From assembly GCA_016865505.2 (NCBI GenBank), contig AP025252.1, positions 4,796,137 to 4,860,136 of the forward strand: a DNA stretch of 64,000 nt, in the 5' to 3' direction. Below, one piece after another: positions 40,423-56,925 of the stretch (position 1 is the stretch's first letter; every line of letters starts with the position of its first letter). The position numbers and the translations under genes are program-made. The stretch comes from Bryobacterales bacterium F-183 (GTDB lineage Bacteria > Acidobacteriota > Terriglobia > Bryobacterales > Bryobacteraceae). Under the pieces are notes generated by a model. That model was not told where the DNA came from. It did not search any database and saw only the letters and a program-made list of their open reading frames with translations.

Positions 40423-41223
40423 ATGCGCTTAAAAATTCTCATCCCGGCTGTTGCAGTGGCTCTCACGTTGGCTGTGGGGGTGATGTACGCGCAGAAGGAG
40501 TTCCGGCAGTACCAGGGCAGCGAGTACGACGAGTTCCCGTTGCCGCCGGATTACGCGGACAAGACTGAGTTTGTGATCGGACGGTTGATGTACAAGTCCG
40601 TGTCGCGTGGGTTCCGGCGGTATTCGAGCTGGACCATTGACTATCCTCGAGCCGACCGGCATCTGGCAGCCGGCATCCGGCGACTGACCCGCACCAATGT
40701 ACGTTCGGTTGAGCAACCCGTGTCGCTCGACGATGACGATGACGTTTACAACTGGCCGTTTCTGTACGCCGTCGAAGTTGGGCACTGGGATCTGACCGAT
40801 GCGCAGGCCGCGCGTTTGCGCGACTATCTGCTGCGCGGCGGGTTCCTGATGTGCGATGACTTTCACGGTACGGACGAATGGGAAGGGTTCATGGAAAGCA
40901 TGCGCCGAGTCTTTCCGGACCGTCCGGTGGTGGACATCGAAGCGTCCGATCCAATTTTCCACACCTTGTATGACCTGGACGATAAATACCAGGTTCCTGG
41001 CGCGCAGTACCTGTACACTGGCCGAACTTTTGAGCGCGATGGTTACGAGGCACGGTGGCGTGGCGTCTATGACGATAAGGGGCGGTTGATGGTGGCCCTG
41101 AATCATAATATGGACCTGGGCGATGCCTGGGAATGGTCCGATGATCCGCGGTACCCGGAGAAGTGGGCGTCGCTGGCATACCGGATTGCAGTGAATTACG
41201 TCGTATACGCTCTCACCCACTAA
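40423..41223 (+). CDS. DUF4159 domain protein
   Basis: Product of 266 residues with a signal peptide or N-terminal anchor (LKILIPAVAVALTLAVGVMY). The DUF4159 fold (class-I amidotransferase-like) follows from about 40: FVIGRLMYKS, SWTIDYPRADRHLAAGIRRL, FLYAVEVGHWDLTDAQAARL, LRGGFLMCDDFHGTDEWEGF and ALNHNMDLGDAWEWSDD. In many Acidobacteria, Planctomycetes and Proteobacteria this family sits with MoxR and DUF58/BatA genes, as here. Function unknown; the conserved Asp/His and Cys may matter. It opens the large operon-like block. Confidence 0.9.
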   Translation: MRLKILIPAVAVALTLAVGVMYAQKEFRQYQGSEYDEFPLPPDYADKTEFVIGRLMYKSVSRGFRRYSSWTIDYPRADRHLAAGIRRLTRTNVRSVEQPVSLDDDDDVYNWPFLYAVEVGHWDLTDAQAARLRDYLLRGGFLMCDDFHGTDEWEGFMESMRRVFPDRPVVDIEASDPIFHTLYDLDDKYQVPGAQYLYTGRTFERDGYEARWRGVYDDKGRLMVALNHNMDLGDAWEWSDDPRYPEKWASLAYRIAVNYVVYALTH

Positions 41224-41265: not shown

Positions 41266-43509
41266 ATGTTCGAGTTTCTATTCAAATATCCAGCCAACGC
41301 CTTCGAACGGGGAAAGATCGTGCTGGCCGGAGGGTGGCCGGTGTGGCTGCTGGTGGCGCTGATGGTGGGCGCTGGGGCGGCGATTGCGTGGCTGGTGTAC
41401 CGGCGGAACAAAGCGTCGCTAGTGGAGGGCCCGCGACAGGCTGCGATCTGGGCGTTGCAGACGGCTTTGGCTTGCCTGCTCTTGTTGATGCTGTGGCAGC
41501 CCGCGCTTTCCGTATCCGCATTGAAGGCCCAGCAGAATGTGGTGGCGGTGATCGTCGATGATTCGAAGAGCATGGGGCAGGTGGAAGATGGTACTCCCCG
41601 GCGGCAGAAGGCGCTCGATGCGTTGAACGGCGGACTGCTGGCGCAACTACGCGAAAAATTCCAGGTACGTCTGTACAAGACGGGTGAGCGGTTGTCGCGA
41701 GTGGAGAAGCTTGAGACGCTGCAATCGACGGATCGCGCGACGCGGCTGGCCGATTCCATGAAGGAAGTGGTTGCCGAGGCGGGGTCGCTGCCCATTGGCG
41801 CTGTGGTGCTGGTGAGCGATGGCGCGGAAAATTCCGGCGGCATCGATCTTGAGACGATCAACGAGATCCGGCGGCATCAGATTCCGGTGCACACGATTGG
41901 CGTGGGTCGCGAAACGATGGTTCGCGATGTGGAGATCAGCGACGCACAGGTTCCGGCACGGGCACTACAAGATTCGCGATTGTCCGCGGTGGTGAGCTTC
42001 CGGCAGGCTGGCTATCAGGGTCAAAAAGGGAAGCTGACGTTGCGCGAGAACGGCAAGGTTCTGGCATCGCAGGATGTGGTGTTCAAGAAAGACGGCGTGC
42101 AGCAAACGGAAGCGGCGCTGTTCAACGCGGGTACGCCGGGGGCGAAGAATCTGGAGATCTCCATTGATCCGCTGCCGGGCGAGGAGAACGCGCAGAACAA
42201 CAAAGTGACGCGGGTGTTTGACGTTTCGGACAAGAAGCCGCGGATCCTGTATGTCGAAGGTGAGCCGCGCTGGGAGTACAAGTTCATCCGCCGGGCGATG
42301 GAAGACGATAAAACCGTCGAACTTGTGACCTTGTTGCGTACGACGCAGAACAAGTTTTACCGGCAGGGCATCAATGGTCCGAAGGAGTTGGAAGCCGGGT
42401 TCCCGTCGACGGACGAGGAATTGTTCCAGTATCAAGCGATTTTGATGGGTACGGTGGAAGCGGCGTGGTTTACGCCGGCGCAGCAGGAGTTGCTGAACCG
42501 GTTTGTGGACAAGCGCGGCGGAGGGCTGATCTTTTTGGCGGGTCGCGCATCGTTTTCTGATGGTGGCTGGTGGCGCGAGCCGTTTATCGGGTTGCTGCCT
42601 GTGACGTTGCCGGAGCGCAAGGGTACGTTCCATCGGGATCCGGCGAATGCGGAGTTGACCAATGCGGGTCGCGATTCGCTGATTACGCGGATTGAAGAGA
42701 ATCCGGATCGCAATATGGAGCGGTGGTCCAAGCTGCCGTACATTGCGGGGTATCAGGATATCGGCGTGCCGAAGCCGGGCGCGTTGTCGCTGGCGAAGTT
42801 GAAGAGTGGCGGCGAACTGCTGGTGACGCAGAACTATGGACGGGGTCGCGTGGCGGCGTTTGCGGGCGCGGGTACGTGGCGGTGGCAGATGTTGCAGCCA
42901 CTTGAGGATAGATCGCACGAGACGTTTTGGCAACAGTTCCTGCGATGGTCTGTGACCGGAACGCCGACGCAGGTGCAGGCGTCGTTATCTAAGACGATGT
43001 TGGCGGATGAATCCAGAGTACGGTTCCGGGCGGAGGCTCGCGATAAATCCTACGCAGCGGCTTCGGACGCTGTGGTGGTGGCGCGAGTGATTGGTCCGGG
43101 TGGAGCGGGGTCCGAAGTTCAGATGACGCCAGTGCCTACGGAATCCGGCGTGTTTGAGGCCGAGTACAACGCGGACGCTGAAGGGTCGTATGTGGTCGAG
43201 ATCGTGGCGAAGCGCGGCGAGGATGAACTGGGTCGCGATGTGGCGACGTTCCGGCGTGAGGATGGCGTGGCGGAGAACTTCCATACGGAACAGAATCGCG
43301 AATTGCTGGAAAAGCTGGCGCAGCAGACCGGGGGTACGTTCCGGGGGGCCGCGGATGCATCGAAGCTGGGCAACGATATTTCCTATTCCGATGCCGGGAT
43401 CACGATGCGAGAGACCAAAGACCTTTGGAACATGCCCATCGTATTTTTGCTGGTGCTGGCGCTGCGCGGGTCCGAATGGATGCTGCGTCGCAAGTGGGGC
43501 GTGATATGA
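41266..43509 (+). CDS. VWA/amidotransferase-like membrane protein
   Basis: Product of 747 residues. Two N-terminal helices (about 25-45 and 59-78) precede a VWA domain with the metal-site motif DDSKS at 98-102. A Rossmann-like region resembling a glutamine amidotransferase follows (about 320-580: PRILYVEGEPRWEYKFIRRA, AILMGTVEAAWF, GGGLIFLAG and GRGRVAAFAGAGTWRW). The C-terminal beta domain and final helix (MPIVFLLVLALRGSEWML) anchor the end. Similar proteins accompany DUF4159 and MoxR genes. Its stop overlaps the caspase-like start (ATGA). Confidence 0.87.
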   Translation: MFEFLFKYPANAFERGKIVLAGGWPVWLLVALMVGAGAAIAWLVYRRNKASLVEGPRQAAIWALQTALACLLLLMLWQPALSVSALKAQQNVVAVIVDDSKSMGQVEDGTPRRQKALDALNGGLLAQLREKFQVRLYKTGERLSRVEKLETLQSTDRATRLADSMKEVVAEAGSLPIGAVVLVSDGAENSGGIDLETINEIRRHQIPVHTIGVGRETMVRDVEISDAQVPARALQDSRLSAVVSFRQAGYQGQKGKLTLRENGKVLASQDVVFKKDGVQQTEAALFNAGTPGAKNLEISIDPLPGEENAQNNKVTRVFDVSDKKPRILYVEGEPRWEYKFIRRAMEDDKTVELVTLLRTTQNKFYRQGINGPKELEAGFPSTDEELFQYQAILMGTVEAAWFTPAQQELLNRFVDKRGGGLIFLAGRASFSDGGWWREPFIGLLPVTLPERKGTFHRDPANAELTNAGRDSLITRIEENPDRNMERWSKLPYIAGYQDIGVPKPGALSLAKLKSGGELLVTQNYGRGRVAAFAGAGTWRWQMLQPLEDRSHETFWQQFLRWSVTGTPTQVQASLSKTMLADESRVRFRAEARDKSYAAASDAVVVARVIGPGGAGSEVQMTPVPTESGVFEAEYNADAEGSYVVEIVAKRGEDELGRDVATFRREDGVAENFHTEQNRELLEKLAQQTGGTFRGAADASKLGNDISYSDAGITMRETKDLWNMPIVFLLVLALRGSEWMLRRKWGVI

Positions 43510-44435
43510 GACGAGTGCTTTTGCTGGGCGTCATGCTGGGTGCGGCTGTCGCGTCTGCTGCCAATACGTACTATCTGGCGGTTGCCGGGTTGGGCGGTGA
43601 GCCGGAGTACGAGCAGCGGTTCGCGGGCTGGGCATCGGACATCGAGAAGATTTTGAAGGCGTCGCAAGGCGTGGATGTTCAGGTGCTGAAGGGCGCGGAT
43701 GCGACCAAGGCAAAGATGCAGGCGGCGGCGGCGAACATTGCTAAAAAAGCAGCAGCCGAGGATCAGGTTGTGTTTTTGCTGATCGGGCATGGGACGTACG
43801 ATGGCACGGAGTATAAGTTCAACGTTACGGGTCCGGATGTTTCCGGTGTGGAACTGGCATCGATGCTCGATCGCATTGCGGCGAAGAAGCAACTGCTGGT
43901 GAATATGACCAGTGCGTCCGGCGGGGCGCTGGCATCGTTGCAGAAGCCGGGGCGCACGGTGATTACGGCGACCAAAGCAGGTACGGAGAAGAATGCGACG
44001 GTGTTCGCACGGTACTGGGTGGAGGCGATGCGCGATGTGTCGAGCGATACGGATAAGAACGAAGTGATTTCCGCGCTCGAGGCGTTTAAGTTCGCCGAAT
44101 CCAAGACCGAAGGTTTTTATAAAACGCAGAACCGCTTGGCGACCGAGCATCCGGTGCTTGAGGATACGGGCAAGGGTACGGCGGTGAAGGATCCGTCGCC
44201 GGCGAACGGCCAAGGTCTGGCAGCGGCGCAGTTTGCTTTGTTGCGGCTGGGCGCGGCGCAGGCGGTGACGCGAGATCCGGCCAAGCGCGAGTTATTTGCC
44301 AAGAAGGAACAGATTGAACAGCAGATCGATAAGCTCAAGTACGACAAAGCGGCCATTCCGGCGACTGAGTACCGTACGAGGTTGAGCCAGTTGCTGCTGG
44401 AGTTGGCGAAAGTGCAGGAGGCGCTCGATCAGTAA
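43506..44435 (+). CDS. Caspase-like protein with Ser at the predicted nucleophile
   Basis: Product of 309 residues. A signal peptide (1-19) precedes a caspase/C13-like Rossmann domain: YYLAVAGLGGEPEYEQRF (22-39), the predicted catalytic His in VVFLLIGHGTYDG (H95) and the later strand LLVNMTSASGGALASL (about 130-146). In caspase and legumain families this strand is followed by the nucleophile in a C-x-S-G pattern; here S136-A-S-G stands in its place. C-terminal helices (about 250-309) end in a coiled coil (KKEQIEQQIDKLKYDKAA). It may be a Ser-nucleophile variant or a non-catalytic binder. It overlaps its neighbour by four bases and precedes the peptidase-MA lipoprotein by one. Confidence 0.75.
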   Translation: MRRVLLLGVMLGAAVASAANTYYLAVAGLGGEPEYEQRFAGWASDIEKILKASQGVDVQVLKGADATKAKMQAAAANIAKKAAAEDQVVFLLIGHGTYDGTEYKFNVTGPDVSGVELASMLDRIAAKKQLLVNMTSASGGALASLQKPGRTVITATKAGTEKNATVFARYWVEAMRDVSSDTDKNEVISALEAFKFAESKTEGFYKTQNRLATEHPVLEDTGKGTAVKDPSPANGQGLAAAQFALLRLGAAQAVTRDPAKRELFAKKEQIEQQIDKLKYDKAAIPATEYRTRLSQLLLELAKVQEALDQ

Positions 44436-44436
44436 C

Positions 44437-46647
44437 ATGAGACTTCTGCTTGCGACGGTGGCGGTGGTGCTGATCGGGTCGTGTTCGTCGAACGCGGCGG
44501 CGCCGCCTTATGTTCCGACAGCGGCGGACCCTTGCTGGGCGCATCGCAAACATGGTCGCGAGGCTGAAGCGAAGGCCTGCTTTACCAAGCTCACGCAGAT
44601 GACCGATCCGGGGATGCGGGCTGAGGGGTACTGGGGTCTGGACCAGTTTTTTCAAGCGAACGAAGACTTCAAGCTGGCGAATAAGAACAACCCCAAGAGT
44701 ACGGCGCTGAAGATCCGTTGGGGCATGATGTTTTTGGAGCGCGATCAATCGGGCGATTCCGAGGAGCTTTTCCAGGACGCGCTGCAGATTGAGCCGGAGA
44801 ATCCGCGGGCGCTGTACGGGATGGCGCTGATTGGCGCCGAGATGTTTGATCGTAAGGCGTCCGAGATGGCGGAGAAGGCGCTGAAGGCCGATCCGAAGAT
44901 GGTTGAGGCGCAGGAACTGCTGGCGCGGTTGGCGCTGGAAGATAACAACAGTCCCAAGGCCGTGGAAGAGGCGGAGAAGGCGCTAAAGATGTCGCCGGAC
45001 GCTTTGGATGCGATGGCGGTGCTGGCGGCCAATGAGTACCTCAATGATCGCGATGGGGCGCCTTGGATCGAGAAGATTCGCAAGATCAACCCGGTGTACG
45101 GCAAGGGTCACGGATTGATTGGGCACATTTTTGTGCTGAACCGGCGGTACGACGAGGGGATCGCGCAGTTTCAAAAGGCGCTGGAGTTGTCCCCATACTT
45201 GTGGCCGGTGCGCGCGGAGATGGGCGTGAACCTGATGCGCCTGGGCCGCGAAGAAGAGGCTCGCAAGGCGCTGGAAGCGGCGTACGAGAGCGGGTATCGC
45301 GGCAATACGACGGTGAATTCGTTGCGGCTGATGGACAGCTACAACCGGTACAACGTGTACAAGACGCCGCGTACGATTATCCGCGTCGAGAAGAAGGAAT
45401 CCGACTTGCTGTTGCCATATGCACAGGCTGAGCTGGATCGTGCGATCGAGACGTTTGAGAAGAAGTACAAGCTGAAGCTGACGGCTCCGGTGCAGTTGGA
45501 GCTGTATCCGAACCACGACGACTTTGCAGTGCGCACGATGGGTATGCCGGGCATCGGCGCGCTGGGTGTGACGTTTGGACATTCGGTGGCGATGGATTCG
45601 CCGTCGGGCAGGAAGCCGGGGTCGTTCCACTGGGCGTCGACGTTGTGGCACGAGTTGTCGCACGTGTTTACGTTGCAGGCCACGCATCACAAGATCCCGC
45701 GGTGGTTCACCGAAGGCATGGCGGTGCATGAGGAAACGGCGATCTATAAGGATTGGGGCGATCGTCTGGACCAGGCCGCGATCATGGCTATCAAGGAAAA
45801 GAAGCTGCTTCCCATCGCTGAGCTGGATCGTGGATTTATGCGGCCGCAGTATCCGACGCAGGTGATTGTGTCGTACTTCCAGGCGGGCAAGATCTGCGAT
45901 TGGATTGAGCAAAAGTGGGGCTGGCAAAAGCTGCTGGACATCACGCAGGCGTTTGGGAAGCGGATCGCGACGGCGGATGTGGTACGGCAGCAGTTGCAGA
46001 TGGAGCCCGAAGAATTTGATAAGCAGTTCATGGCCTGGCTGGATACTCAGGTGGGGGCGCAGGTTCGCAACTACGATGAGTGGAAGAAGCAGATGAAGCC
46101 GGTGACCGAGGCTTATCTCAAGAAGAATTGGGATGCGGTGATTGCCGATGCCGGTAAGGTTCGGGATCTGTATCCGGATTACGTCGAGACGCGGTCGGCG
46201 TACGAGATGCTGGCGGAAGCGCTGATTGCCAAGGGCGAGAAGGCGAAGGCCATGGCCGAGTTGGCGCGGTATTCGGATCAGGGCGGACGTACGCCGGAGA
46301 CGCTGCATAAGCTGGCGGATCTACAAATTGAGGCCGGCAAGAAGGCTGAGGCCGCGAAGACTTTGGAGCGGATCAACTTCATATACCCGCTTGATGAGGA
46401 TCTGCATCGCAAGCTGGGAAATCTGTACAACGAGTTGGGCAATAAGAAGGGCGCCGTGCGCGAGTTTGAAGCGCTGGTGGCGTCTAAGCCTAACGATCAG
46501 GCAGGGTCGCGGTACCTGCTGGCAAAAGCATATTCTGATGTAAACCGGATTGAGGACGCCAAGGATCAGGTCATCCAGGCGCTTGAGGCCGCACCCGGTT
46601 ATAAGCCCGCGCAAAAGCTGCTGTTAGAACTGAATAGGACCAAATAA
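44437..46647 (+). CDS. TPR lipoprotein with gluzincin (peptidase MA-like) domain
   Basis: Product of 736 residues. A type II signal is likely (LIGSC, Cys16). TPR-like repeats fill 35-290 and 520-735 (ALYGMALIGAEMF, AKALKADPKMVEAQELL, DEGIAQFQKALELSPYLWP, EAAKTLERINFIYPLDED). Between them is a zinc metalloprotease domain with HELSH at 405-409 and a downstream EGMAVHEE (E426) as in gluzincins. The active-site residues are intact. It is the only clear protease in the cluster and follows the caspase-like gene by one base. Substrate unknown; it likely acts at the outer face of a membrane. Confidence 0.87.
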   Translation: MRLLLATVAVVLIGSCSSNAAAPPYVPTAADPCWAHRKHGREAEAKACFTKLTQMTDPGMRAEGYWGLDQFFQANEDFKLANKNNPKSTALKIRWGMMFLERDQSGDSEELFQDALQIEPENPRALYGMALIGAEMFDRKASEMAEKALKADPKMVEAQELLARLALEDNNSPKAVEEAEKALKMSPDALDAMAVLAANEYLNDRDGAPWIEKIRKINPVYGKGHGLIGHIFVLNRRYDEGIAQFQKALELSPYLWPVRAEMGVNLMRLGREEEARKALEAAYESGYRGNTTVNSLRLMDSYNRYNVYKTPRTIIRVEKKESDLLLPYAQAELDRAIETFEKKYKLKLTAPVQLELYPNHDDFAVRTMGMPGIGALGVTFGHSVAMDSPSGRKPGSFHWASTLWHELSHVFTLQATHHKIPRWFTEGMAVHEETAIYKDWGDRLDQAAIMAIKEKKLLPIAELDRGFMRPQYPTQVIVSYFQAGKICDWIEQKWGWQKLLDITQAFGKRIATADVVRQQLQMEPEEFDKQFMAWLDTQVGAQVRNYDEWKKQMKPVTEAYLKKNWDAVIADAGKVRDLYPDYVETRSAYEMLAEALIAKGEKAKAMAELARYSDQGGRTPETLHKLADLQIEAGKKAEAAKTLERINFIYPLDEDLHRKLGNLYNELGNKKGAVREFEALVASKPNDQAGSRYLLAKAYSDVNRIEDAKDQVIQALEAAPGYKPAQKLLLELNRTK

Positions 46648-46651
46648 CGTT

Positions 46652-47668
46652 TTGTCTACCACTACTCTCGATTCCACGGAACTCAAAGCACGCGTTGACC
46701 GGTTTCAGGCCGCTCACGCCGACATCGTCCGGCAGGTTCGCCGCGTCATCGTGGGCCAGGACGAAGTTTTGGAACAGGTGCTGATCGCGCTGTTTGTCGG
46801 CGGCCACTGTCTGATTACGGGGTTGCCCGGCACGGCGAAAACGTTGCTGGTTCGCACGCTGTCGGACACCCTGGGGCTGAAGTTCAAGCGTATTCAGTTC
46901 ACGCCCGACCTAATGCCCACCGATATCACGGGCACCGACATCATCGAAGAGGAGCCGGGAACGGGACGCCGTACGTGGACGTTTGTGCCGGGTCCGCTGT
47001 TTGCGAACGTGGTGCTGGCGGACGAAATCAACCGTACGCCACCGAAGACGCAGTCGGCGTTGCTTGAGGCGATGCAGGAGTATTCGTGCACGGTGCGCGG
47101 TACGCAATACAAGCTGGAGCGGCCGTTCTTTGTGCTGGCGACGCAGAATCCGATTGAGCTGGAAGGTACGTACCCGCTGCCGGAAGCGCAGCTGGATCGA
47201 TTCCTGTTCAACACGATGCTCGATTACCTTCCCGTCGAGGACGAGATGAAGGTGCTGGACATGACGACCACGACGGCAGTGAATCAGGCGCAGGCGGTGA
47301 CGACGGCGGAAGAGATTTTGAGCTTCCAGCAGTTGGTACGCATGGTGCCGATTGCGGAGCCGGTGGCGCGGTATGCGCTGAATCTGGTTCGTGCGACGCG
47401 TGTGACGACCGATGAAGCGCCGGACTTCATGAAGAAGTACGTGAACTTTGGTGCGTCGGTACGCGGTGCGCAGTTTCTGGTGCTGTCGGCCAAGTGCCGG
47501 GCGCTGATGAAGCAGCGGTATCACGTGACGTACGAAGACGTGGCGGCGCTGTTGCGTCCGGTGCTGCGGCATCGCATTCTGGTGAACTTCCACGCGGAAT
47601 CGGAAAAGATAACGTCGGACGATTTGTTGAAGCGGTTGCTTGAGACCGTTCCGCACCCGAAGGGATAA
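46652..47668 (+). CDS. MoxR-family AAA+ ATPase
   Basis: Cytoplasmic ATPase of 338 residues. Walker A GLPGTAKT at 57-64, Walker B VLADEINRTPPKTQSALLEA (121-140), the sensor-1 region LATQNPIE and the C-terminal lid (SAKCRALMKQRYHVTYEDV) are complete. MoxR proteins work as chaperone-like rings together with VWA-domain partners encoded beside them. Here DUF58 and BatA genes follow directly. The start is TTG at 46652, four bases after the previous stop; its use is inferred from the first conserved residues. Confidence 0.94.
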   Translation: MSTTTLDSTELKARVDRFQAAHADIVRQVRRVIVGQDEVLEQVLIALFVGGHCLITGLPGTAKTLLVRTLSDTLGLKFKRIQFTPDLMPTDITGTDIIEEEPGTGRRTWTFVPGPLFANVVLADEINRTPPKTQSALLEAMQEYSCTVRGTQYKLERPFFVLATQNPIELEGTYPLPEAQLDRFLFNTMLDYLPVEDEMKVLDMTTTTAVNQAQAVTTAEEILSFQQLVRMVPIAEPVARYALNLVRATRVTTDEAPDFMKKYVNFGASVRGAQFLVLSAKCRALMKQRYHVTYEDVAALLRPVLRHRILVNFHAESEKITSDDLLKRLLETVPHPKG

Positions 47669-48556
47669 ATGGAGCAACGCTATCTCAGTCCGTCGGTACT
47701 GGCTTCGATATCCGGGCTTGACCTGGTAGCGAAGACGGTTGTGGACGGGTTCATTTCGGGGTTGCACCGGTCGCCGGACTTCGGGTTCAGCCAGGAGTTT
47801 GCCGAGTACGCGTTGTACAACCCCGGCGATGACTTGCGGCACGTGGATTGGAACGTGTTTGCACGGTCGGAACGCATGTACCTAAAGCGGTTTCAGGGCG
47901 AGACCAATTCGCAGGTAACGATTCTTGTCGATGCCTCGAATTCGATGCGGTACAAGTCGGGGTCACTCGATAAGCTCGAGTATGCGAGGTTTTTGGCGGC
48001 TTCGATTGCGTATCTGGCCAGCCAGCAGCGCGATGCGATCGGGTTGATCGTGTTCGATGACGAAGTTCGGCAGTATGTGCCTCCGTCGGCGCGGCAGGGG
48101 CAGATGCATCGTGTGTTGCATGCGCTGGAGCATGCGGAGCCGGGCAAGCGTACGGACTTTGGGAAGCCGTTTTTGCACTGCCAACAGTTTCTGCATCGGC
48201 GGGGACTGGTGGTGGTGTTTTCGGATTTTTATGAAGATCCGAAAAAGATCAAGGATGCGCTGTTGCCGCTGCGGGCCAAGGGTACGGAAGTTGTGGTGTT
48301 CCATGTACTCGATCCCGAAGAGATCAAGCCGAAGTTGGGTGAGCCGGTGATTTTGCTCGATATGGAAACGCAGGCGTCCATTGAAGTGTCACCGGATTAT
48401 GCGCGGGGCGAGTATACGCAGAAGATCAATCAGCACATCGCGGATTTGAAGGCGAATATACAGTCGGGCGGGATGGATTACTATCTTGCGGCGACGGATA
48501 AGCCGCTCGATGCGGCGTTGCGTGAGTATCTGGGTGTCCGAAAGGGGCGGTTGTAA
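47669..48556 (+). CDS. DUF58 protein (VWA-like)
   Basis: Product of 295 residues. The DUF58 core is seen in RSPDFGFSQEFAEYALYNPG, DDLRHVDWNVFARSERMYLK and the metal-site motif VDASNSM (D88), so the VWA-like fold follows at 82-290. No membrane helix is present, unlike some relatives, so it is probably cytoplasmic or peripheral. It begins on the base after the MoxR stop, the usual MoxR/DUF58 arrangement. It probably acts as a MoxR client or adaptor. Confidence 0.92.
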   Translation: MEQRYLSPSVLASISGLDLVAKTVVDGFISGLHRSPDFGFSQEFAEYALYNPGDDLRHVDWNVFARSERMYLKRFQGETNSQVTILVDASNSMRYKSGSLDKLEYARFLAASIAYLASQQRDAIGLIVFDDEVRQYVPPSARQGQMHRVLHALEHAEPGKRTDFGKPFLHCQQFLHRRGLVVVFSDFYEDPKKIKDALLPLRAKGTEVVVFHVLDPEEIKPKLGEPVILLDMETQASIEVSPDYARGEYTQKINQHIADLKANIQSGGMDYYLAATDKPLDAALREYLGVRKGRL

Positions 48557-48562
48557 CGACCG

Positions 48563-50584
48563 ATGGGATTCTTTTCGCCATGGTTTCTGGTAGGTGCTTT
48601 GGGCATTGGGCTGCCGTTGTGGCTGCATCTGTTGCGGCGGCACAAAACGGAACCTCGCGAATTCAGTTCCCTGATGTTTTTTGAGCAACGGCAGCAGAGT
48701 TCGGTGAAGCACCGGCGGCTGCGGTACTTGCTGTTGCTGGCGATGCGGATCGCGCTGCTGTTGTTGCTGGCGCTGTTGTTTGCGCGGCCGTACTTCATTA
48801 CCGAGAACCCGCAGGTGACGGGCAATAAGCTGCGGATCGTAGCGGTGGACCGGAGCTTTAGTATGCGTACTTCGGGCGCTTTGGAGCGGGCGAAGACGCA
48901 GGCGCATAGCCTTGTTGCGTCGCGCGGGGCTGGCGGTCAAGCGCAGGTTGTGGCGCTAAACGGAAGCGTCGAAGTGCTGACGCAGCCGACGTCCGATCCG
49001 GCCGGATTAGACGCGGCGATTGACGGCATTGTGCCGGGCGATGGGAAGACATCCTACGGCGAGTTGGCGCGCTTTGTGCGGACGGTTGCAGCGAACGCAA
49101 AGGTTCCGATTGAGCTGCATTTGATTGGCGATTTGCAGAAGACGGGGCTGCCTCCGGGGTTCGCGGATTTGCAGTTGCCGAATGGTACGGATCTGCAAGT
49201 GCATAGTGTTTCGGCCACCGAGACGCGGAATTTTGCGGTGGAGAATGTGCGCGCGCCGGGGGTGGTGACCGATCCCAAGAAGGTCCGGTTTGAGGCGACG
49301 ATTGCGTCGTATCAGACGACGGAGCCCACCAAGAAGACCGTGACGATGATGATCAACGGGCAGACGGTACAGACGAAGGAAGTGACGATTCCTGCGTTTG
49401 GACGGGGTCGCGTGGAGTTTACGGGTCTTGATGCATCGTTCGGGTTGAACAAGGGCGAGGTTCGGATTGACAGCGGCGATGTCCTGGCGGCGGACGATAA
49501 GTTTTACTTCGGGTTTGAGCGCGTGGAGCCTCGCAAGGTGCTGGTGGCGCATGATTCGCGGCAGGCGAGGTCGCTGACGTACTTGAAGGCTGCGCTCGAA
49601 TCAGCTGGGGATACGCCGTTCACGATTGAGTCGATGAGTTGCGAGACGACGGCTGGTGTAGATCCGTCTAAGTACGCGTTCGTGATGCTGGGCGATTGTG
49701 GAACCTTGCCGAATACGTTTGAGGCGGACTTGCGGAAGTACGCGCAGGCTGGTGGATCGGTGTTTGTGACCTTGGGCTTTTCGTCGGCATCGCGCAATAA
49801 GGTGCCGCTGACGGATTGGACGATTGAGACGTCGCGGTATGAAGGTCGCGATGGGGAACGTTTTTTGATTGCTTCGCAGGTGGATGCCGGACATCCGGTG
49901 ACGCGACGCGCCGATGCGTTGGATGCCGTGCGGTTTTACCAGATCGTACGGTTTACGCCAGGACCGTCCCGCACGATTGCGAAGGTCGGCGATGGTGGCG
50001 CGTTGTTGTCGGAAGTCACGTTTGGCGAAGGCAAGGTGATGGTGTTCGGGTCGACGTTGGACAACCTGGCGAATGACTTTCCGCTGCATGCCTCGTTTGT
50101 GCCGTTTGTGGAGCACATGTTCAATTACATGGGCGGGACGAGCGAAAAACCTGGTGCTGTACCTGTCGCGTCGAGCGCGGAGTTGCGGAATGCGAAGTCC
50201 AATGCGGCGGCTGAGGTGATTGGGCCGACGGGCAAGTCCGAATTGAGCCTGGCGGAGTCGACACGGGCGAGGTCCTTCACGTTTGCGCACGAGGGCTTTT
50301 ATGAGATCCGGCGGGCGAATCAGAAGCCGGAGTTGTTTGCGGTGAACGCGGACCGGCGCGAGTCTGACCTGACGCCGGTGACGCAGGATACCATCGAGGC
50401 GTGGAAGAGAACCGGTTCGACAACGGTGTCGAGCACGGGTGATGGCCGGCTCCTGGATGAGCGGGAAAAGCTGTACGATCCCTGGCGGATCTTGCTGTTC
50501 GTACTTGTGTTGATTGTGGCGGCGGAGACCTTTATTGGCAGCCGCTATTTGTCCGAGAGCCGTGATTCGGAGGCAGCATCATGA
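48563..50584 (+). CDS. BatA-domain VWA membrane protein
   Basis: Product of 673 residues. An N-terminal BatA domain (LGIGLPLWLHLLRRHK, SSVKHRRLRYLLLLAMRIAL) supplies two helices at about 5-25 and 55-78. A VWA domain follows with metal-site motif DRSFS (96-100). Further beta domains and a Rossmann-like region (KVLVAHDSRQARSLTYLKAA, GGSVFVTLGFSS) lead to a final helix (ILLFVLVLIVAAETFI). It is bounded by MoxR-DUF58 and DUF4175; its stop overlaps the DUF4175 start (ATGA). Confidence 0.9.
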   Translation: MGFFSPWFLVGALGIGLPLWLHLLRRHKTEPREFSSLMFFEQRQQSSVKHRRLRYLLLLAMRIALLLLLALLFARPYFITENPQVTGNKLRIVAVDRSFSMRTSGALERAKTQAHSLVASRGAGGQAQVVALNGSVEVLTQPTSDPAGLDAAIDGIVPGDGKTSYGELARFVRTVAANAKVPIELHLIGDLQKTGLPPGFADLQLPNGTDLQVHSVSATETRNFAVENVRAPGVVTDPKKVRFEATIASYQTTEPTKKTVTMMINGQTVQTKEVTIPAFGRGRVEFTGLDASFGLNKGEVRIDSGDVLAADDKFYFGFERVEPRKVLVAHDSRQARSLTYLKAALESAGDTPFTIESMSCETTAGVDPSKYAFVMLGDCGTLPNTFEADLRKYAQAGGSVFVTLGFSSASRNKVPLTDWTIETSRYEGRDGERFLIASQVDAGHPVTRRADALDAVRFYQIVRFTPGPSRTIAKVGDGGALLSEVTFGEGKVMVFGSTLDNLANDFPLHASFVPFVEHMFNYMGGTSEKPGAVPVASSAELRNAKSNAAAEVIGPTGKSELSLAESTRARSFTFAHEGFYEIRRANQKPELFAVNADRRESDLTPVTQDTIEAWKRTGSTTVSSTGDGRLLDEREKLYDPWRILLFVLVLIVAAETFIGSRYLSESRDSEAAS

Positions 50585-53500
50585 ACGCACTGGAACTTCT
50601 CAATGGATATCTGAAGCGGGCCGAGCAACGGTTGCGCTGGAAGATGTTTGGGCGCGGGATCGCGTTGGCGTGCGGGGTCGCACTGCTGGCGACGTTGATT
50701 CTGGTGTCGTTCACCAATGCGTTTGCGTTCTCGGAATCGAGCGTGTTTTGGGCGCGAATCATCCTGTTTGTGTCGACGGCTCTGGCGATCACATTTGGAT
50801 TGGTGATCCCGCAGTTGGCAATCAACAAGAAGAATACGGCGCGTGAGGCGGAGAAGCTTTACCCCGAGTTCCAGCAGAGTTTGATGACGTTTACGGATCG
50901 CGCGGAGAAGAATGATCCGTTCCTTGAGTTGGTGGCTGGTGAAGCGCATGCTGTAGCGTCGCGCGCGACGACGGATCGCTTTGCACCGCTGCCTTTGCTG
51001 GCTGGATTCTGGGTGGGTGGTACGTTCGCGGCGTTGTTCCTGTTGTGGCTGGTGACGTCGGGACCGGGGTACTGGGGGCATGGCGCTTCCCTGCTCTGGG
51101 CGGGTGCTCCGAAGGGCACCATCGCTTCGTTCTACGACATTCTGGTGACGCCTGGCGATAAGACCGTGCGGCGGCGTTCGGATCAGATGGTGACGGCCCA
51201 GTTGGTGGGTTTTGATTCGACCAAGGTACGGCTGAAGGCCAAGTACGACGGCGCGTCGAAGGAAGAAGAAGTACCGATGCTGCCGCAACCGAGCGGCGCC
51301 GGGTATGAGTTCCTGTTTGCGTCGCTGCCGACGGGTGTTGAGTACTACGTTGAGGCGAACGGCATCAAGAGCAAGGTCTATCGCTTTTCCGTTGTGGATT
51401 TGCCCAACGTGAAGAAGATGAAGGTCACCTATACGTACCCGGGTTGGACGGGGATGAAGGAGATGACCGAGGATCCGGGCGGGGACATTCGCGCGGTGGA
51501 AGGTACGGTGGCGACGATTACCGTTGAGACCGATCAGCCGCTGAAGAATGGCCTTGTGGTGATCGATTCGGGCGAGAAGATTGCGCTTGAAGGTTCGGGT
51601 ACGACGCTGACGGCGAAGGTCACGGTGCAGAAGGATGGCTTGTACCACCTGGGCGTGCAGACCGAGAAAGATCTGGTGCGGCTGAGCGATGACTACTTCA
51701 TTGAAGCTCGCAAGGACAATGCTCCGAATGTACGGCTGCGGAAGCCGGGCAAGGATGCGAAGGTCAGCCCGATTGAAGAAGTGGGCGTACTGATTGAGGC
51801 CGATGATGATTTTGGCCTGCAATCGATGACGTTGCACTACACGGTGAACGGCGGCGAGGAAAAGCAGGTGGGTCTGCTGAATCAGCGCGGCGTGAAGACG
51901 GCTGAGGGACAGACGCTGATTTCGCTCGAAGACTTTAAGCTGTCGCCCGGCGATGTGATTGGCATTTACGCGTCGGCCAAGGATGCTCGCGCGACATCGC
52001 AGACGGACATCTTCTTTATCGAGGCGCAGCCGTTTGAGAAGAGCTATTCGCAATCCCAACAGGGCGGCGGTGGCGGTGGCGGCGAGCAGGAGCAGCAGGA
52101 ACAGATTTCGCGGCGGCAGAAGGAGATCATCGCGGCGACGTGGAATGAGATCCGGAAGCCGAGCGCGGCGGGCAAGGAGAAGGCGGACATCGCCAAGTTC
52201 CTGGCCGATATGGAATCGAAGCTGCGCGACCAGGCGAAGATGCTGTCGCAGCGCGTGAAGGCCCGTCAGCTTGCGGGTACGAACGATGAGTTCAAGACCC
52301 TGGTGAAAGAGATTGATGGTGCGGTGCAGGAGTTGGGCGTCGCTTCGAATTTGCTGGGTGAGCAGAAGTTCAAAGATGCGCTGCCGGTTGAGCAGAAGGC
52401 GCTGCAGCACATCCTGCGCATCGAAGAGAGCCAGCGCGATATTCAGGTGGCGTTTGGAAATCGCAGCCAGGGTGGCGGTGGTGGCGGCGGCGCGGGTCGC
52501 GATCTGGAGAATCTGTTCGATCTCGAGTTGGATACCGAGAAGAACATGTACGAGAGCGGGCGGAAGTCCACGGGCGGCGGCGGTGAAGAGCGCGCCAAGG
52601 CTGTGGATGAAGCGGCGCAGCGGTTGGCGGAGTTGGCACGGCGCCAGCAGGAACTCGCGCAACAGCAGCAGAAGCAGGGGCAGAACTTCCAGCAGAAGTG
52701 GCAGCAGGAATTGTTGCGTCGCGAGGCGGAAGAGCTGAAGAAGCAGTTGGAGCAGATGACTGGTCAGCAGCAGCAACAGCAACAGCAACAGTCGTCTTCC
52801 TCGTCATCGTCTTCTTCGCAGAGTGGACAGCAGGGCCAGCAGGGTCAACAGAGTTCGCAGCAGCAACAGCAGCAGCAGCAACAACAGAGTGCCCAGCAGC
52901 GGCAGCAGGATCGCCAGTTGCAGCAGACACTCGAGCGGTTGAAGCAGGCGATTGAGGATATGCGGCGGTCCCAGCAGTCTCCGGAGCAGGCTCGTGCAGG
53001 GTCGCAACGGGCGGCCGATCGTTTGCAGGAAGCGCGGCAGTCCGTACAGCAGATGCGGCAGCAGGAATCGCAGGATGCGCTGGGCAGTGTCGGACAGCAG
53101 GCGGATCAAGTGGCGCAGGCGCAGGCCGAGTTTGAGAAGAAGATGAAGGAGACCTACGGCGGCGGCAAGCAGGGTATGGATCGCGCTGCCAACGAGCAGA
53201 TGGCCTCCGAGAAGGAAAAGATCGCGTCGCAGTTGGATGAGCTGGAGCGCAAGATGCAGAAGGCGATGTCGAACATGCAGGGTACGCAGCCGAAGGCGGC
53301 GTCGCAACTGCGTGAGGCATTGGGTGACTTGCAGGGTTCGGAAACGCAGCGGCGGATGAAGCAGAGTTCGCAGTGGATTCGGCGTGGTCAGGGCCGGTAC
53401 CTTATGGGTGCCGAGGAGACGGCGACGGAAGCGCTGGAACGGCTGCGCGACCAGGTACGGAAGGCGCAGGCGGCTGTGGATCCGAACGCGAAGTCCGGCG

Positions 53501-54306
53501 ACCAGGAGAAGGCGTCCGGCGGCGGTACGAAGCAGGATAAGGAAGTGGAGCAGGCGCTGGAACGTGTGGAACGCATGCGTAGTCAACTGCAGCAGTTGAT
53601 GCGTGGCCAGCAGCAGGGTCAACAGGGTCAGGGCCAACAGCAAGGCCAACGCGGGCAGCAACAGGGCCAGGGTCAGCAACAGGGTCAACAGCAAGGCCAG
53701 CAGCAGGGTCAGCAAGGCCAACAGGGTCAACAGGGACAGCAAGGTCAGCGCGGACAGCAGGGCCAGCAGGGCCAGCAAGGTCAGCAGGCCGGGAATCAGC
53801 AGGGACAACAGGGTCAAGGCCAGCAGCAAGGTCAGGGTCAACAGCCGGGCCAGGGTCAGCAGGGCGGCGGACAGCAGGGTGGAGGCCGTGAAATGGGCGG
53901 CGCTACCGGCGGTGGGCCGTACGGTGGCGGACCTTGGAATGGTGGTCCTTTGCAGGGACGTACGTTGCCGGCGGAGACGGCGGAGCGTACGCTGCGGGAG
54001 GCCTCGCGCGACATGGCGCAGATCCGGCAGGCCTTGCGCGACAATCCGGAACTGGCTCGCGAGTTCGGCGATGCGTTTGCGGAACTGCAGCGGATGGACT
54101 TTTCGAAGCTGCCGCAGGGTCCTGAGTTGGAAGAACGGCTGCGGCGGCAGGTGATGCCGAACATCGAGGCGCTGGAGCTGATGCTGCGGCGGAAGCTCGA
54201 TGAGTCGCGCGGCGGACAGGTACGCAATGCGGCGAGTGAGCGTCCACCAGACGGGTACGCCGACAAGGTGGCCGACTACTTCCGCCGGCTTAGCAAGGGA
54301 CGGTAA
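50581..54306 (+). CDS. DUF4175 giant membrane protein with Q-rich tail
   Basis: Product of 1241 residues. Three hydrophobic segments near the N-terminus (about 24-45, 57-80 and 136-160) anchor it. A beta-rich region (about 190-480) is followed by a long helical, charged segment (490-1000) with poly-Gln/Ser and poly-Gly stretches, and by a G/Q-repeat domain (1009-1102). The end (1103-1241) is helical (QIRQALRDNPELAREFGDAF). DUF4175 family members are commonly beside BatA/MoxR genes. The helical Q-rich parts may form coiled coils or act as flexible tethers. Function unknown. It is the largest protein in the window. Confidence 0.9.
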   Translation: MNALELLNGYLKRAEQRLRWKMFGRGIALACGVALLATLILVSFTNAFAFSESSVFWARIILFVSTALAITFGLVIPQLAINKKNTAREAEKLYPEFQQSLMTFTDRAEKNDPFLELVAGEAHAVASRATTDRFAPLPLLAGFWVGGTFAALFLLWLVTSGPGYWGHGASLLWAGAPKGTIASFYDILVTPGDKTVRRRSDQMVTAQLVGFDSTKVRLKAKYDGASKEEEVPMLPQPSGAGYEFLFASLPTGVEYYVEANGIKSKVYRFSVVDLPNVKKMKVTYTYPGWTGMKEMTEDPGGDIRAVEGTVATITVETDQPLKNGLVVIDSGEKIALEGSGTTLTAKVTVQKDGLYHLGVQTEKDLVRLSDDYFIEARKDNAPNVRLRKPGKDAKVSPIEEVGVLIEADDDFGLQSMTLHYTVNGGEEKQVGLLNQRGVKTAEGQTLISLEDFKLSPGDVIGIYASAKDARATSQTDIFFIEAQPFEKSYSQSQQGGGGGGGEQEQQEQISRRQKEIIAATWNEIRKPSAAGKEKADIAKFLADMESKLRDQAKMLSQRVKARQLAGTNDEFKTLVKEIDGAVQELGVASNLLGEQKFKDALPVEQKALQHILRIEESQRDIQVAFGNRSQGGGGGGGAGRDLENLFDLELDTEKNMYESGRKSTGGGGEERAKAVDEAAQRLAELARRQQELAQQQQKQGQNFQQKWQQELLRREAEELKKQLEQMTGQQQQQQQQQSSSSSSSSSQSGQQGQQGQQSSQQQQQQQQQQSAQQRQQDRQLQQTLERLKQAIEDMRRSQQSPEQARAGSQRAADRLQEARQSVQQMRQQESQDALGSVGQQADQVAQAQAEFEKKMKETYGGGKQGMDRAANEQMASEKEKIASQLDELERKMQKAMSNMQGTQPKAASQLREALGDLQGSETQRRMKQSSQWIRRGQGRYLMGAEETATEALERLRDQVRKAQAAVDPNAKSGDQEKASGGGTKQDKEVEQALERVERMRSQLQQLMRGQQQGQQGQGQQQGQRGQQQGQGQQQGQQQGQQQGQQGQQGQQGQQGQRGQQGQQGQQGQQAGNQQGQQGQGQQQGQGQQPGQGQQGGGQQGGGREMGGATGGGPYGGGPWNGGPLQGRTLPAETAERTLREASRDMAQIRQALRDNPELAREFGDAFAELQRMDFSKLPQGPELEERLRRQVMPNIEALELMLRRKLDESRGGQVRNAASERPPDGYADKVADYFRRLSKGR
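52765..52887 (+). repeat. Poly-Gln/poly-Ser tract
   Basis: Encodes residues 729-769 of the DUF4175 protein: nine Gln, nine Ser, then alternating Gln/Gly and ten more Gln. CAG/CAA triplets and TCN codons are mixed, so it is not a pure triplet array. Confidence 0.9.
53605..53886 (+). repeat. Gln-Gly repeat array
   Basis: Encodes residues 1009-1102 of DUF4175, 94 residues of Q and G with few Arg and Pro, built from QQG, QQQG and QGQQ units. Synonymous codons (CAG/CAA, GGT/GGC) alternate, so the array is older than a recent slippage event. Confidence 0.92.
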
Positions 54307-55125: not shown

Positions 55126-56925
55126 ATGAGTGTTCGAGTTTCTGCATTGCTGATGGCGGGGGCCTGCCTGGTGGCCGAGGCGCAAGGACCGATTCGTCCT
55201 CCCATGCGGAGGCCGTCCCAACAAGGGCAGGGCGCGGCGGCCGGGCTAGATCAGGGACAAGGGCGACGCCAGGGACAACAGCAGCAGCAAGGGCAGACAC
55301 CTGGATCGGTGGAAGGGGAGCCCGCGGCGCTGAATCCGGAAGATTACGGGTCTGTGCAAGGTACGGTGGTGGACATCCAGACCGGGCAGCCACTGAAGAA
55401 GGCGGAAGTGACGCTGCTGCGTGGCGATGGGCGTAACGATACGCCGGATGCACAGAGTGCGACCACTGGCGCGGACGGGGCTTTTCAGTTTGTGAAGGTC
55501 GCGCCGGGGCGGTATTCGGTGCGTGTGCAGAAGACCGGATATGTGGGCGCGAATCGCGGGACGAGTGCTGCGGCATCGCGTGGCATGGGGAGTTCCGTGG
55601 CGAGCCTGACGCTGAACAAAGGCGAGAATGTACGGGACTTTGCGTTCAAGATGCAGCCGCATGGGGTGATCTCGGGCCGTGTATTGGATGACGAGGGCGA
55701 GCCTGTGGCGCGGGTACAGGTGCAGGCGCAGCGGTATGTGTACCAGAACGGGCAGAAGCGATTGATGCCGCTGGGTATGGGGAGTACGAATGATTTGGGC
55801 GAGTACCGGATTTGGGGTGTCGCGCCGGGGACGTACTTTTTGGCGGCGACGCCGATGGACTTCAACATGGTGCCTCGCAACCGGCCGGCGCGGGATGGGC
55901 ATGCTACGACGTACTTCCCTTCTTCGCTGAGTGTGGATCGTGCGAATCCATTGCAGATAGCGGCGGGGTCGCGGCTGGAGAACGTGGATGTGCGTATGAT
56001 GCGAGCGCACATGGTGACGGTGTCGGGCATTGTGATGGACGCGGCAAAGGGCGAGAAGGCATCGCGCGCCCAGGTGACTTTGACGCCGAATGGCGACAAC
56101 GCCGGCGAAGTCATGATGATGGCGATGCGCGGCGGCGGGATGGCGCGTAATGGTGCGTTTACGCTGCAGAATGTAACGGCGGGTTCGTATACGTTGACCG
56201 CGAATGTGTTTGGGGAGCAAGGTGGGCGGAATATGTCCATCGGCACGCTACAGATTGACGTGGGCAATGAGGACATCAAGGGTCTGACGGTGGTGGCGCA
56301 TCCGGGTGCAACCGTGACCGGCAAGGTGAAGTATGAGGGTACGGATACGGCGCCGGCGTCGTCAAACCTGCGGGTTGTGCTCGAGAGTCAGCGGCCGCTG
56401 ATGATGATGGGCATGACTGGTTCGCAGGTTGGGGCGGATGGAAAGATCGAGCTTAGCAATGTCGCGGCGTCGAAGTTCCGGGTTCGTGTGTCCGGGATGC
56501 CGGAGGGCTACTACGTCAAAGAGGTGAAGCTGGGAAACCAGGATGTACGGCAGACGGGGCTGGACTTTAGCAATGGGGTTGCGGGCGAGTTGGAGATCAC
56601 GCTGGCGCCGGGCGCGGGTACGGTGAGTGGCGTGGTGAAGACCACCAAGGACGAGACGCAATCAAATGCCGTGGTGGTGCTGGTGCCGAAGACCGAGTAC
56701 GCGGGGTTGAGCGATCAGATTCGCAATACGATTACGGGTACGAAGGGCGAGTATACGTTTGCCGGGGTGGCGCCTGGTGACTATGACGTGTACGTGTTTG
56801 AGGACATCGAGCCCGGCGCTTGGGCAGATCCCGAGGTGCGGCTGGCGGCGAAGGATTCCGCAAAGTCGGTGAAGGTGGATAACGGCGCGGCGGCGACGTT
56901 GGAGCTTAAGCTACCGCGCTCGTAG
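55126..56925 (+). CDS. Secreted carboxypeptidase-regulatory-like repeat protein
   Basis: Product of 599 residues with a signal peptide (about 1-21) and a Gln-rich linker (to about 65). Five to six CNA-B-like domains follow, seen from GSVQGTVVDIQTGQPLKKAEVTLL, GRYSVRVQKTGYVG, YRIWGVAPGTYFLAATP, SYTLTANVFG, FRVRVSGMPEGYYVK and YTFAGVAPGDYDVYVFEDI. Such proteins are surface or outer membrane-linked. It starts nine bases after mutM and overlaps the oppositely directed MFS gene by 20 bases. Confidence 0.87.
   Translation: MSVRVSALLMAGACLVAEAQGPIRPPMRRPSQQGQGAAAGLDQGQGRRQGQQQQQGQTPGSVEGEPAALNPEDYGSVQGTVVDIQTGQPLKKAEVTLLRGDGRNDTPDAQSATTGADGAFQFVKVAPGRYSVRVQKTGYVGANRGTSAAASRGMGSSVASLTLNKGENVRDFAFKMQPHGVISGRVLDDEGEPVARVQVQAQRYVYQNGQKRLMPLGMGSTNDLGEYRIWGVAPGTYFLAATPMDFNMVPRNRPARDGHATTYFPSSLSVDRANPLQIAAGSRLENVDVRMMRAHMVTVSGIVMDAAKGEKASRAQVTLTPNGDNAGEVMMMAMRGGGMARNGAFTLQNVTAGSYTLTANVFGEQGGRNMSIGTLQIDVGNEDIKGLTVVAHPGATVTGKVKYEGTDTAPASSNLRVVLESQRPLMMMGMTGSQVGADGKIELSNVAASKFRVRVSGMPEGYYVKEVKLGNQDVRQTGLDFSNGVAGELEITLAPGAGTVSGVVKTTKDETQSNAVVVLVPKTEYAGLSDQIRNTITGTKGEYTFAGVAPGDYDVYVFEDIEPGAWADPEVRLAAKDSAKSVKVDNGAAATLELKLPRS

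Follow-up and report, generated by a model that had tools for sequence, protein, structure and literature searches.

Replacement of the catalytic cysteine by serine in proteins with a caspase fold is already known. In pseudo-orthocaspases, 90% of which occur in Alphaproteobacteria and Cyanobacteria, Tyr and Ser stand instead of His and Cys (PMC6426788), and metacaspase 4 (MCA4) of Trypanosoma brucei is a Cys-to-Ser pseudopeptidase that is N-myristoylated at the membrane (PMC7475262, PMC10896300). An earlier survey found an intact dyad in 84% of bacterial metacaspases (PMC3501461). MoxR AAA+ ATPases and vWA proteins are described as acting in pairs, in the manner of chaperones, to bind other proteins and remodel them (PMC7159879), and the role of Bat-type operons is unsettled, deletion of Bat in Leptospira biflexa having given no oxidative phenotype (PMC3557215). 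The gene described here was found in a window of 64,000 nucleotides from Bryobacterales bacterium F-183 (Acidobacteriota; GenBank assembly GCA_016865505.2, contig AP025252.1, positions 4,796,137 to 4,860,136). It occupies positions 43506-44435 of the forward strand, encodes a protein of 309 residues, and is the third in a close run of eight genes encoding, in order, a DUF4159 protein, a vWA/GATase-like protein, the 309-residue protein, a TPR/Peptidase_MA_2 protein, MoxR, DUF58, BatA and DUF4175. We read its product, with a probability of about 0.7, as an exported clan CD pseudoprotease that would serve as a binding or scaffolding subunit, paired with the upstream vWA/GATase-like protein in a MoxR-DUF58-BatA-type envelope machine.

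The protein shares its fold with legumain (C13, human 7fqi), whereas its family has neither the catalytic Cys nor an acid two positions ahead of it, is bacterial and lies in a MoxR operon. Bacterial caspases and orthocaspases (C14) have in common with it the His motif, a Pfam match at the cut-off and a profile alignment with E 9.4e-18; in contrast to them, the Cys is replaced here and the protein is of an exported type, while two ordinary Cys caspases are encoded elsewhere in the same genome. Pseudo-orthocaspases likewise carry a replaced catalytic residue, often Ser, but in the present family His is constant and only the Cys position changes (PMC6426788). T. brucei metacaspase 4 also shows Cys-to-Ser replacement in a caspase fold and functions without peptidase activity; it is eukaryotic, whereas the present family extends across a phylum and is in most cases linked to a single partner gene. 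MoxR and BatA-type vWA genes are shared with the Bat and MoxR-vWA operons, although an exported legumain-like subunit is not among the parts of those operons described in these sources (PMC3557215, PMC7159879). In VMAP systems caspase-like domains are in contrast fused to a vWA or VMAP component. A literature search, with most subscription journals outside its scope, found nothing on DUF4159, nothing joining Acidobacteria, caspase and MoxR, and nothing joining three of Peptidase_C13, Acidobacteria, caspase-like, pseudoprotease and vWA. What appears to be new is a large exported family in which His is fixed and the nucleophile position varies. This pattern is opposite to that of the pseudo-caspases described in these sources, mainly from cyanobacteria and alphaproteobacteria, where His is lost too, with one more from a trypanosome. 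MoxR-vWA (Bat-like) operons would thereby gain a defined extracytoplasmic component that is open to deletion or pull-down.

Predicted fold and the site of the missing cysteine

AlphaFold2 was run with the 309-residue protein and 78 relatives of 51-61% identity, and returned a model with a predicted local distance difference test score (pLDDT) of 92.8 and a predicted template modelling score of 0.87. In a Foldseek search with this model, legumain came out on top (E 1.2e-7). MALT1, the Geobacter protein GSU0716, chain K of glycosylphosphatidylinositol (GPI) transamidase and caspases ranked next, and a metacaspase was also matched. VIA-align, used as a second pass over the Foldseek matches, gave Z 20.2 for legumain 7fqi_B (root-mean-square deviation 2.4 over 195 residues), Z 21.0 for the legumain proenzyme 4nol_A (5.3 over 231), Z 19.7 for plant metacaspase 4 and about 17 for caspases. 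On this predicted structure the protein can be assigned with high confidence to the clan CD (caspase-haemoglobinase) fold, nearer to legumain than to caspase. A reading of the same DNA made from sequence alone (the sequence-only reading) had proposed a caspase-like fold, and the model bears this out with legumain as the nearest fold. The ACE2 chain 9n7e, obtained in PDB sequence searches (E 0.19 and 0.0023), was rejected, its score being low and its alignment lying outside the His and Ser motifs.

In the model, H95 (positions 43788-43790) directly follows strand 87-94, and S136 (43911-43913) lies between strand 128-135 and helix 138-145, in the place of the catalytic Cys. The sequence-only reading had named the His motif and the strand LLVNMTSASGG, with Ser standing where the Cys is expected; LLIGHGTYDG and LLVNMTSASGG are indeed present at the positions it gave, and the replacement was confirmed by alignment. 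When the family (248 rows) was aligned by hhalign with 12 Cys-bearing C14 proteins of related genomes (probability 99.0, E 9.4e-18), S136 came to stand opposite the Cys. The 12 proteins had been picked from 30 loci by a pattern (Asp two before, Cys/Ser/Ala, xSG) and the other 18 dropped; as this pattern demanded Asp, the comparison of the acid was redone without it. The motif was then located in 26 of the 30 loci, all 26 with Asp-x-Cys, and was not located in L267, L268, L286 and L292. Within the phylum, the C13-like proteins L295 (LEPCFSGG) and L296 (FQQCYGGG) also aligned to the family with their Cys at position 136, and L295 has Glu two residues before it. Position 134, where this acid would stand, is Met in the 309-residue protein, and neither Asp nor Glu occurs there in any of 231 family members. 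The catalytic His after strand 3 has been kept throughout the family, while the catalytic Cys after strand 4 has been lost.

Pfam models recognised the family poorly. Peptidase_C14 (PF00656) matched residues 44-103 of the 309-residue protein with 21.4 bits, exactly the curated cut-off, and in a test of 18 family members (E <= 0.01) it matched one. Peptidase_C13 (PF01650) matched seven of the 18 (best E 1.8e-8), the 309-residue protein itself giving no match to this model. At least 10 of the 18 matched neither, which shows how such genes escape notice. Pseudo-orthocaspases have one or both dyad residues replaced in a C14 p20 domain; here one dyad residue is replaced, and membership in the C14 p20 family is borderline by the Pfam matches.

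Variation at position 136

The main counts were made on 231 distinct cores; an earlier set of 248 rows contained some proteins twice with different ends. L049 was left out for its run of N, as were rows shorter than 220 residues or with X; among the nearest 80 loci of the genome scan, L109 and L124 were passed over as truncated or without a recognisable start. Position 136 was Ser in 205 sequences, Glu in 9, Ala in 5, Asn in 4, Thr in 3, Gly in 3 and Pro in 2; 26 sequences were thus non-Ser, and none had Cys. His95, Gly94, Gly109, Asp111, Glu192 and Glu214 were invariant. On a FastTree tree of 229 rows, from which columns 134-140 had been removed beforehand, at least 12 changes between Ser and non-Ser were counted at position 136, compared with four at position 138 and none at His95; 42 of 189 scored columns changed less often than position 136. 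Such repeated variation is expected of a leftover residue and not of a catalytic nucleophile, which argues for a pseudoenzyme. The sequence-only reading had offered this as one of three options, and loss of peptidase activity is now the best supported of them, with position 136 never Cys, H95 constant and the acid at 134 gone. An alignment of homologues, which had been suggested with that reading to see whether Ser136 or Cys is fixed, gave a divided answer, as neither is fixed across the 231 sequences and Ser is nearly so in close relatives.

The replacement pattern was also compared with gene neighbourhood. To this end 124 distinct distant rows (123 with letters at site 136) were sorted by the operon genes matched nearby, in classes that depend on the length of the available flank. 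Where MoxR or DUF4159 was matched, 56 of 64 rows had Ser136, the others having Asn (4), Thr (3) or Pro (1). Where the metallopeptidase was matched but neither MoxR nor DUF4159, Ser136 stood in 26 of 28 rows. Where the vWA/GATase-like gene was the sole match, it stood in 15 of 31, against Glu in 9, Ala in 4 and Gly in 3. Some rows of the last class (L206, L215, L219) are cut-off contigs and not second copies.

Several observations weigh against the pseudoprotease reading. S136 is nearly fixed in close relatives, as a catalytic Ser would be: it was Ser in 48 of 49 rows (the protein itself included, L049 excluded) and in all 78 sequences read from the nearest 80 of at least 551 relatives that the genome scan found. 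For the invariant H95 no role other than catalysis is proven, and the Cys-bearing C13-like protein L296 has Gln rather than an acid two residues before its Cys. The near-fixation of S136, its place after the strand in the model and the invariance of H95 would fit a Ser-type hydrolase, another option of the sequence-only reading, in which H95 and S136 would act as a His-Ser dyad within a legumain fold, at least in close relatives, and other lineages would have lost activity later. We consider this unlikely. Ser136 has given way to six other residues across the phylum while H95 stayed constant, replacements also occur in copies near MoxR or DUF4159, and the acid before the Cys position is absent throughout the family.

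Two neighbouring residues were considered as the nucleophile and rejected. Cys137 was present in just 19 of 231 sequences, scattered over the family (at least 10 changes on the 248-row tree), and its rarity speaks against it; five of the 20 Cys137 rows of the 248-row set have Asn or Thr at 136. In these rows (L202, L212, L218, L158 and L211; TNCSG, TTCSG) a nucleophile shifted by one residue is conceivable. Ser138 (43917-43919) is near-invariant (224/231), yet in the alignments it falls on the Ser of CxSG, a motif that many active relatives carry, and it begins helix 138-145; it is read as structural for these reasons.

A further explanation starts from the other invariant residues, and would make the protein a ligand- or metal-binding protein or an enzyme of other chemistry, with H95, D111, E192 and E214 as working residues and S136 as incidental. 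The invariance of these four residues in a family in which S136 varies is consistent with this, as is an EF-hand-like loop from D181 to E192 (DTDKNEVISALE; 44046-44081), a possible Ca2+ site. D181 was found in 228 of 231 sequences and E192 in all; a loose pattern of the loop fitted 199 of 231, and 228 with two more letters allowed, whereas the strict PROSITE EF-hand pattern fitted just four of 248 family rows. The loop may bind Ca2+. E192 lies in this loop, however, and a similar loop pattern occurs in seven of the 12 Cys-bearing C14 proteins, so that it may be structural. Of the explanations weighed against the pseudoprotease reading, we regard this as the least probable.

Pairing with the upstream vWA/GATase-like gene

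The main partner gene (41266-43509, forward strand) encodes a membrane protein with vWA and GATase1-like regions, and its stop shares the bases ATGA (43506-43509) with the start ATG of the gene for the 309-residue protein at 43506. The vWA motif residues D98, S100 and S102 were invariant in all 177 rows with letters. The GATase1-like region was matched by Pfam with E 1.1e-6; no column of the partner alignment (180 rows) had Cys in more than 30%, and this region therefore appears to be without a Cys nucleophile. The predicted model of the partner had a pLDDT of 86.6.

Of 189 loci with enough flank, 182 (75/75, 18/18 and 89/96 in the three sets) had the partner as the first operon gene on the upstream side. 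No more than 300 bases separated the aligned ends of the two in 179 of these loci, and in none was the distance above 883. A homologue of the 309-residue protein (E <= 0.01) was found in 53 of 61 genomes, its own included; of the eight close relatives without the gene, six also lacked the partner, and in two (G001, G017) the partner was cut off by a contig end. In the phylum scan, 143 of 396 genomes were matched at E <= 1e-3, a count that takes in weak similarity to other caspases. At E <= 1e-13 the family was present in 114 of 396 genomes, the partner at E <= 1e-20 in 116, and both in 114. Of the two partner-only genomes, G140 is 75% complete and has a fragment, and the match in G278 is weak. 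Among the nearest 57 loci with at least 6.5 kb downstream, MoxR was matched in 56, DUF58 in 56 and BatA in 57. A plasmid collection yielded one homologue, from Gemmatirosa (Gemmatimonadota), with partner, MoxR, DUF58 and BatA matches on the same strand. Terriglobus roseus DSM 18391 also has a homologue (L115). Exceptions to the pairing have to be added to the points on the opposing side. Six loci (L192, L194, L196, L203, L245, L253) had the metallopeptidase gene on the upstream side, with the partner located on a different contig. In G398 the partner did lie upstream, but 5.9 kb away, and in G216 only partial matches to both proteins were found, far apart.

The gene downstream (44437-46647, forward strand) begins one base past the stop of the 43506-44435 open reading frame and encodes the TPR/Peptidase_MA_2 protein, a metallopeptidase with an HExxH motif and, judged by eye, a lipoprotein-like N-terminus. 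The sequence-only reading had suggested a binding module that controls this metallopeptidase. Its gene was indeed the nearest downstream in 69 of 70 and 18 of 18 close-relative loci, and HExxH was intact in 95 of 95 sequences, as would be expected if the 309-residue protein regulated or inhibited it. Across the phylum, however, it followed in only 48 of 86 loci and preceded in six, and stretches such as L168, L172, L175, L181 and L187 carried the caspase-like gene and MoxR with no metallopeptidase match. Such control is therefore not supported as a general role, and we hold it to be quite improbable, more so than a Ser-type hydrolase.

The fold lacks the cutting Cys, and the gene usually stands right behind that of one membrane protein, which suggests a binding part of an envelope machine rather than an enzyme. 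With catalytic Cys and preceding acid lost and His kept, the protein would be placed at the inner membrane, on its outer face, together with its vWA/GATase-like partner. Its old substrate cleft would bind a peptide or protein, or the protein would be a scaffold, for this partner, and the unit would work inside a MoxR-DUF58-BatA-type AAA+/vWA machine. What the data show is the gene, its hydrophobic N-terminus, the predicted fold, the positions of S136 and H95, the replacement pattern, and the conserved pairing and co-occurrence of the two genes; that peptidase activity is lost, that the protein touches its partner, that it binds something and that it is linked to MoxR-driven remodelling is inferred. 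More tentatively, and with doubt prevailing, the whole might be an AAA+/vWA machine of the envelope, present throughout the phylum, most of whose parts are enzyme folds without nucleophile (legumain without Cys, GATase-like without conserved Cys). In it, H95, D111 and E214 would have a function independent of residue 136, for instance to hold a ligand or the end of a peptide for MoxR-vWA remodelling.

Remaining genes and features

The N-terminus of the 309-residue protein is hydrophobic and of the exported type, with a helix at 2-14 in the AlphaFold2 model, in agreement with the export claimed by the sequence-only reading. Residues 1-18 (43506-43559) form a probable signal peptide, with the cleavage site (...VASA^A) judged by eye. 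A C-terminal helical hairpin at residues 250-308 (44253-44429) is conserved in the model and the family alignment.

The other genes of the run, all on the forward strand, encode the DUF4159 protein (40423-41223, E 1.8e-42) at its beginning and, by domain matches, MoxR AAA+ ATPase (46652-47668), a DUF58 protein (47669-48556) and a BatA-type vWA membrane protein (48563-50584). The last gene of the presumed operon, for a DUF4175 protein (50581-54306; 27.3 bits, at the cut-off), shares four bases with the BatA gene. Sites resembling promoters and terminators were about as frequent in the run as in shuffled sequence (3 versus 4.3 and 15 versus 12.7), and thus give no information on the operon limits. 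A role in anti-phage defence was rejected, PADLOC having given one weak MoxR match (mad8, E 1.1e-4) for six operon proteins.

A Foldseek search with the partner model also returned chains of eukaryotic oligosaccharyltransferase, 6s7t_G and 7oci_G (E 8e-9 and 4e-8), ranked below the Salmonella protein 2gk3; both chains are probably OST48/Wbp1. Together with the GPI transamidase match of the 309-residue protein, these matches recall transferase complexes of the endoplasmic reticulum, although the TM-scores to the query are low and the likeness may be no more than one of shared folds. Modules of DUF4175, vWA/GATase-like and caspase-like genes also occur in the phylum (L176, L180, L182, L188, L205 and others), and position 136 is often Glu, Ala or Gly in them. 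Two of the nearest 80 records (L053, L103) carry names of other phyla, as labelled in the records. The two ordinary caspases of the same genome (L132, L133), encoded outside the window, have His and Cys (DACHSG, DCCFSG) and are far longer proteins. Slightly downstream of the operon, at 55126-56925, a protein with several carboxypeptidase-regulatory-like domains is encoded.

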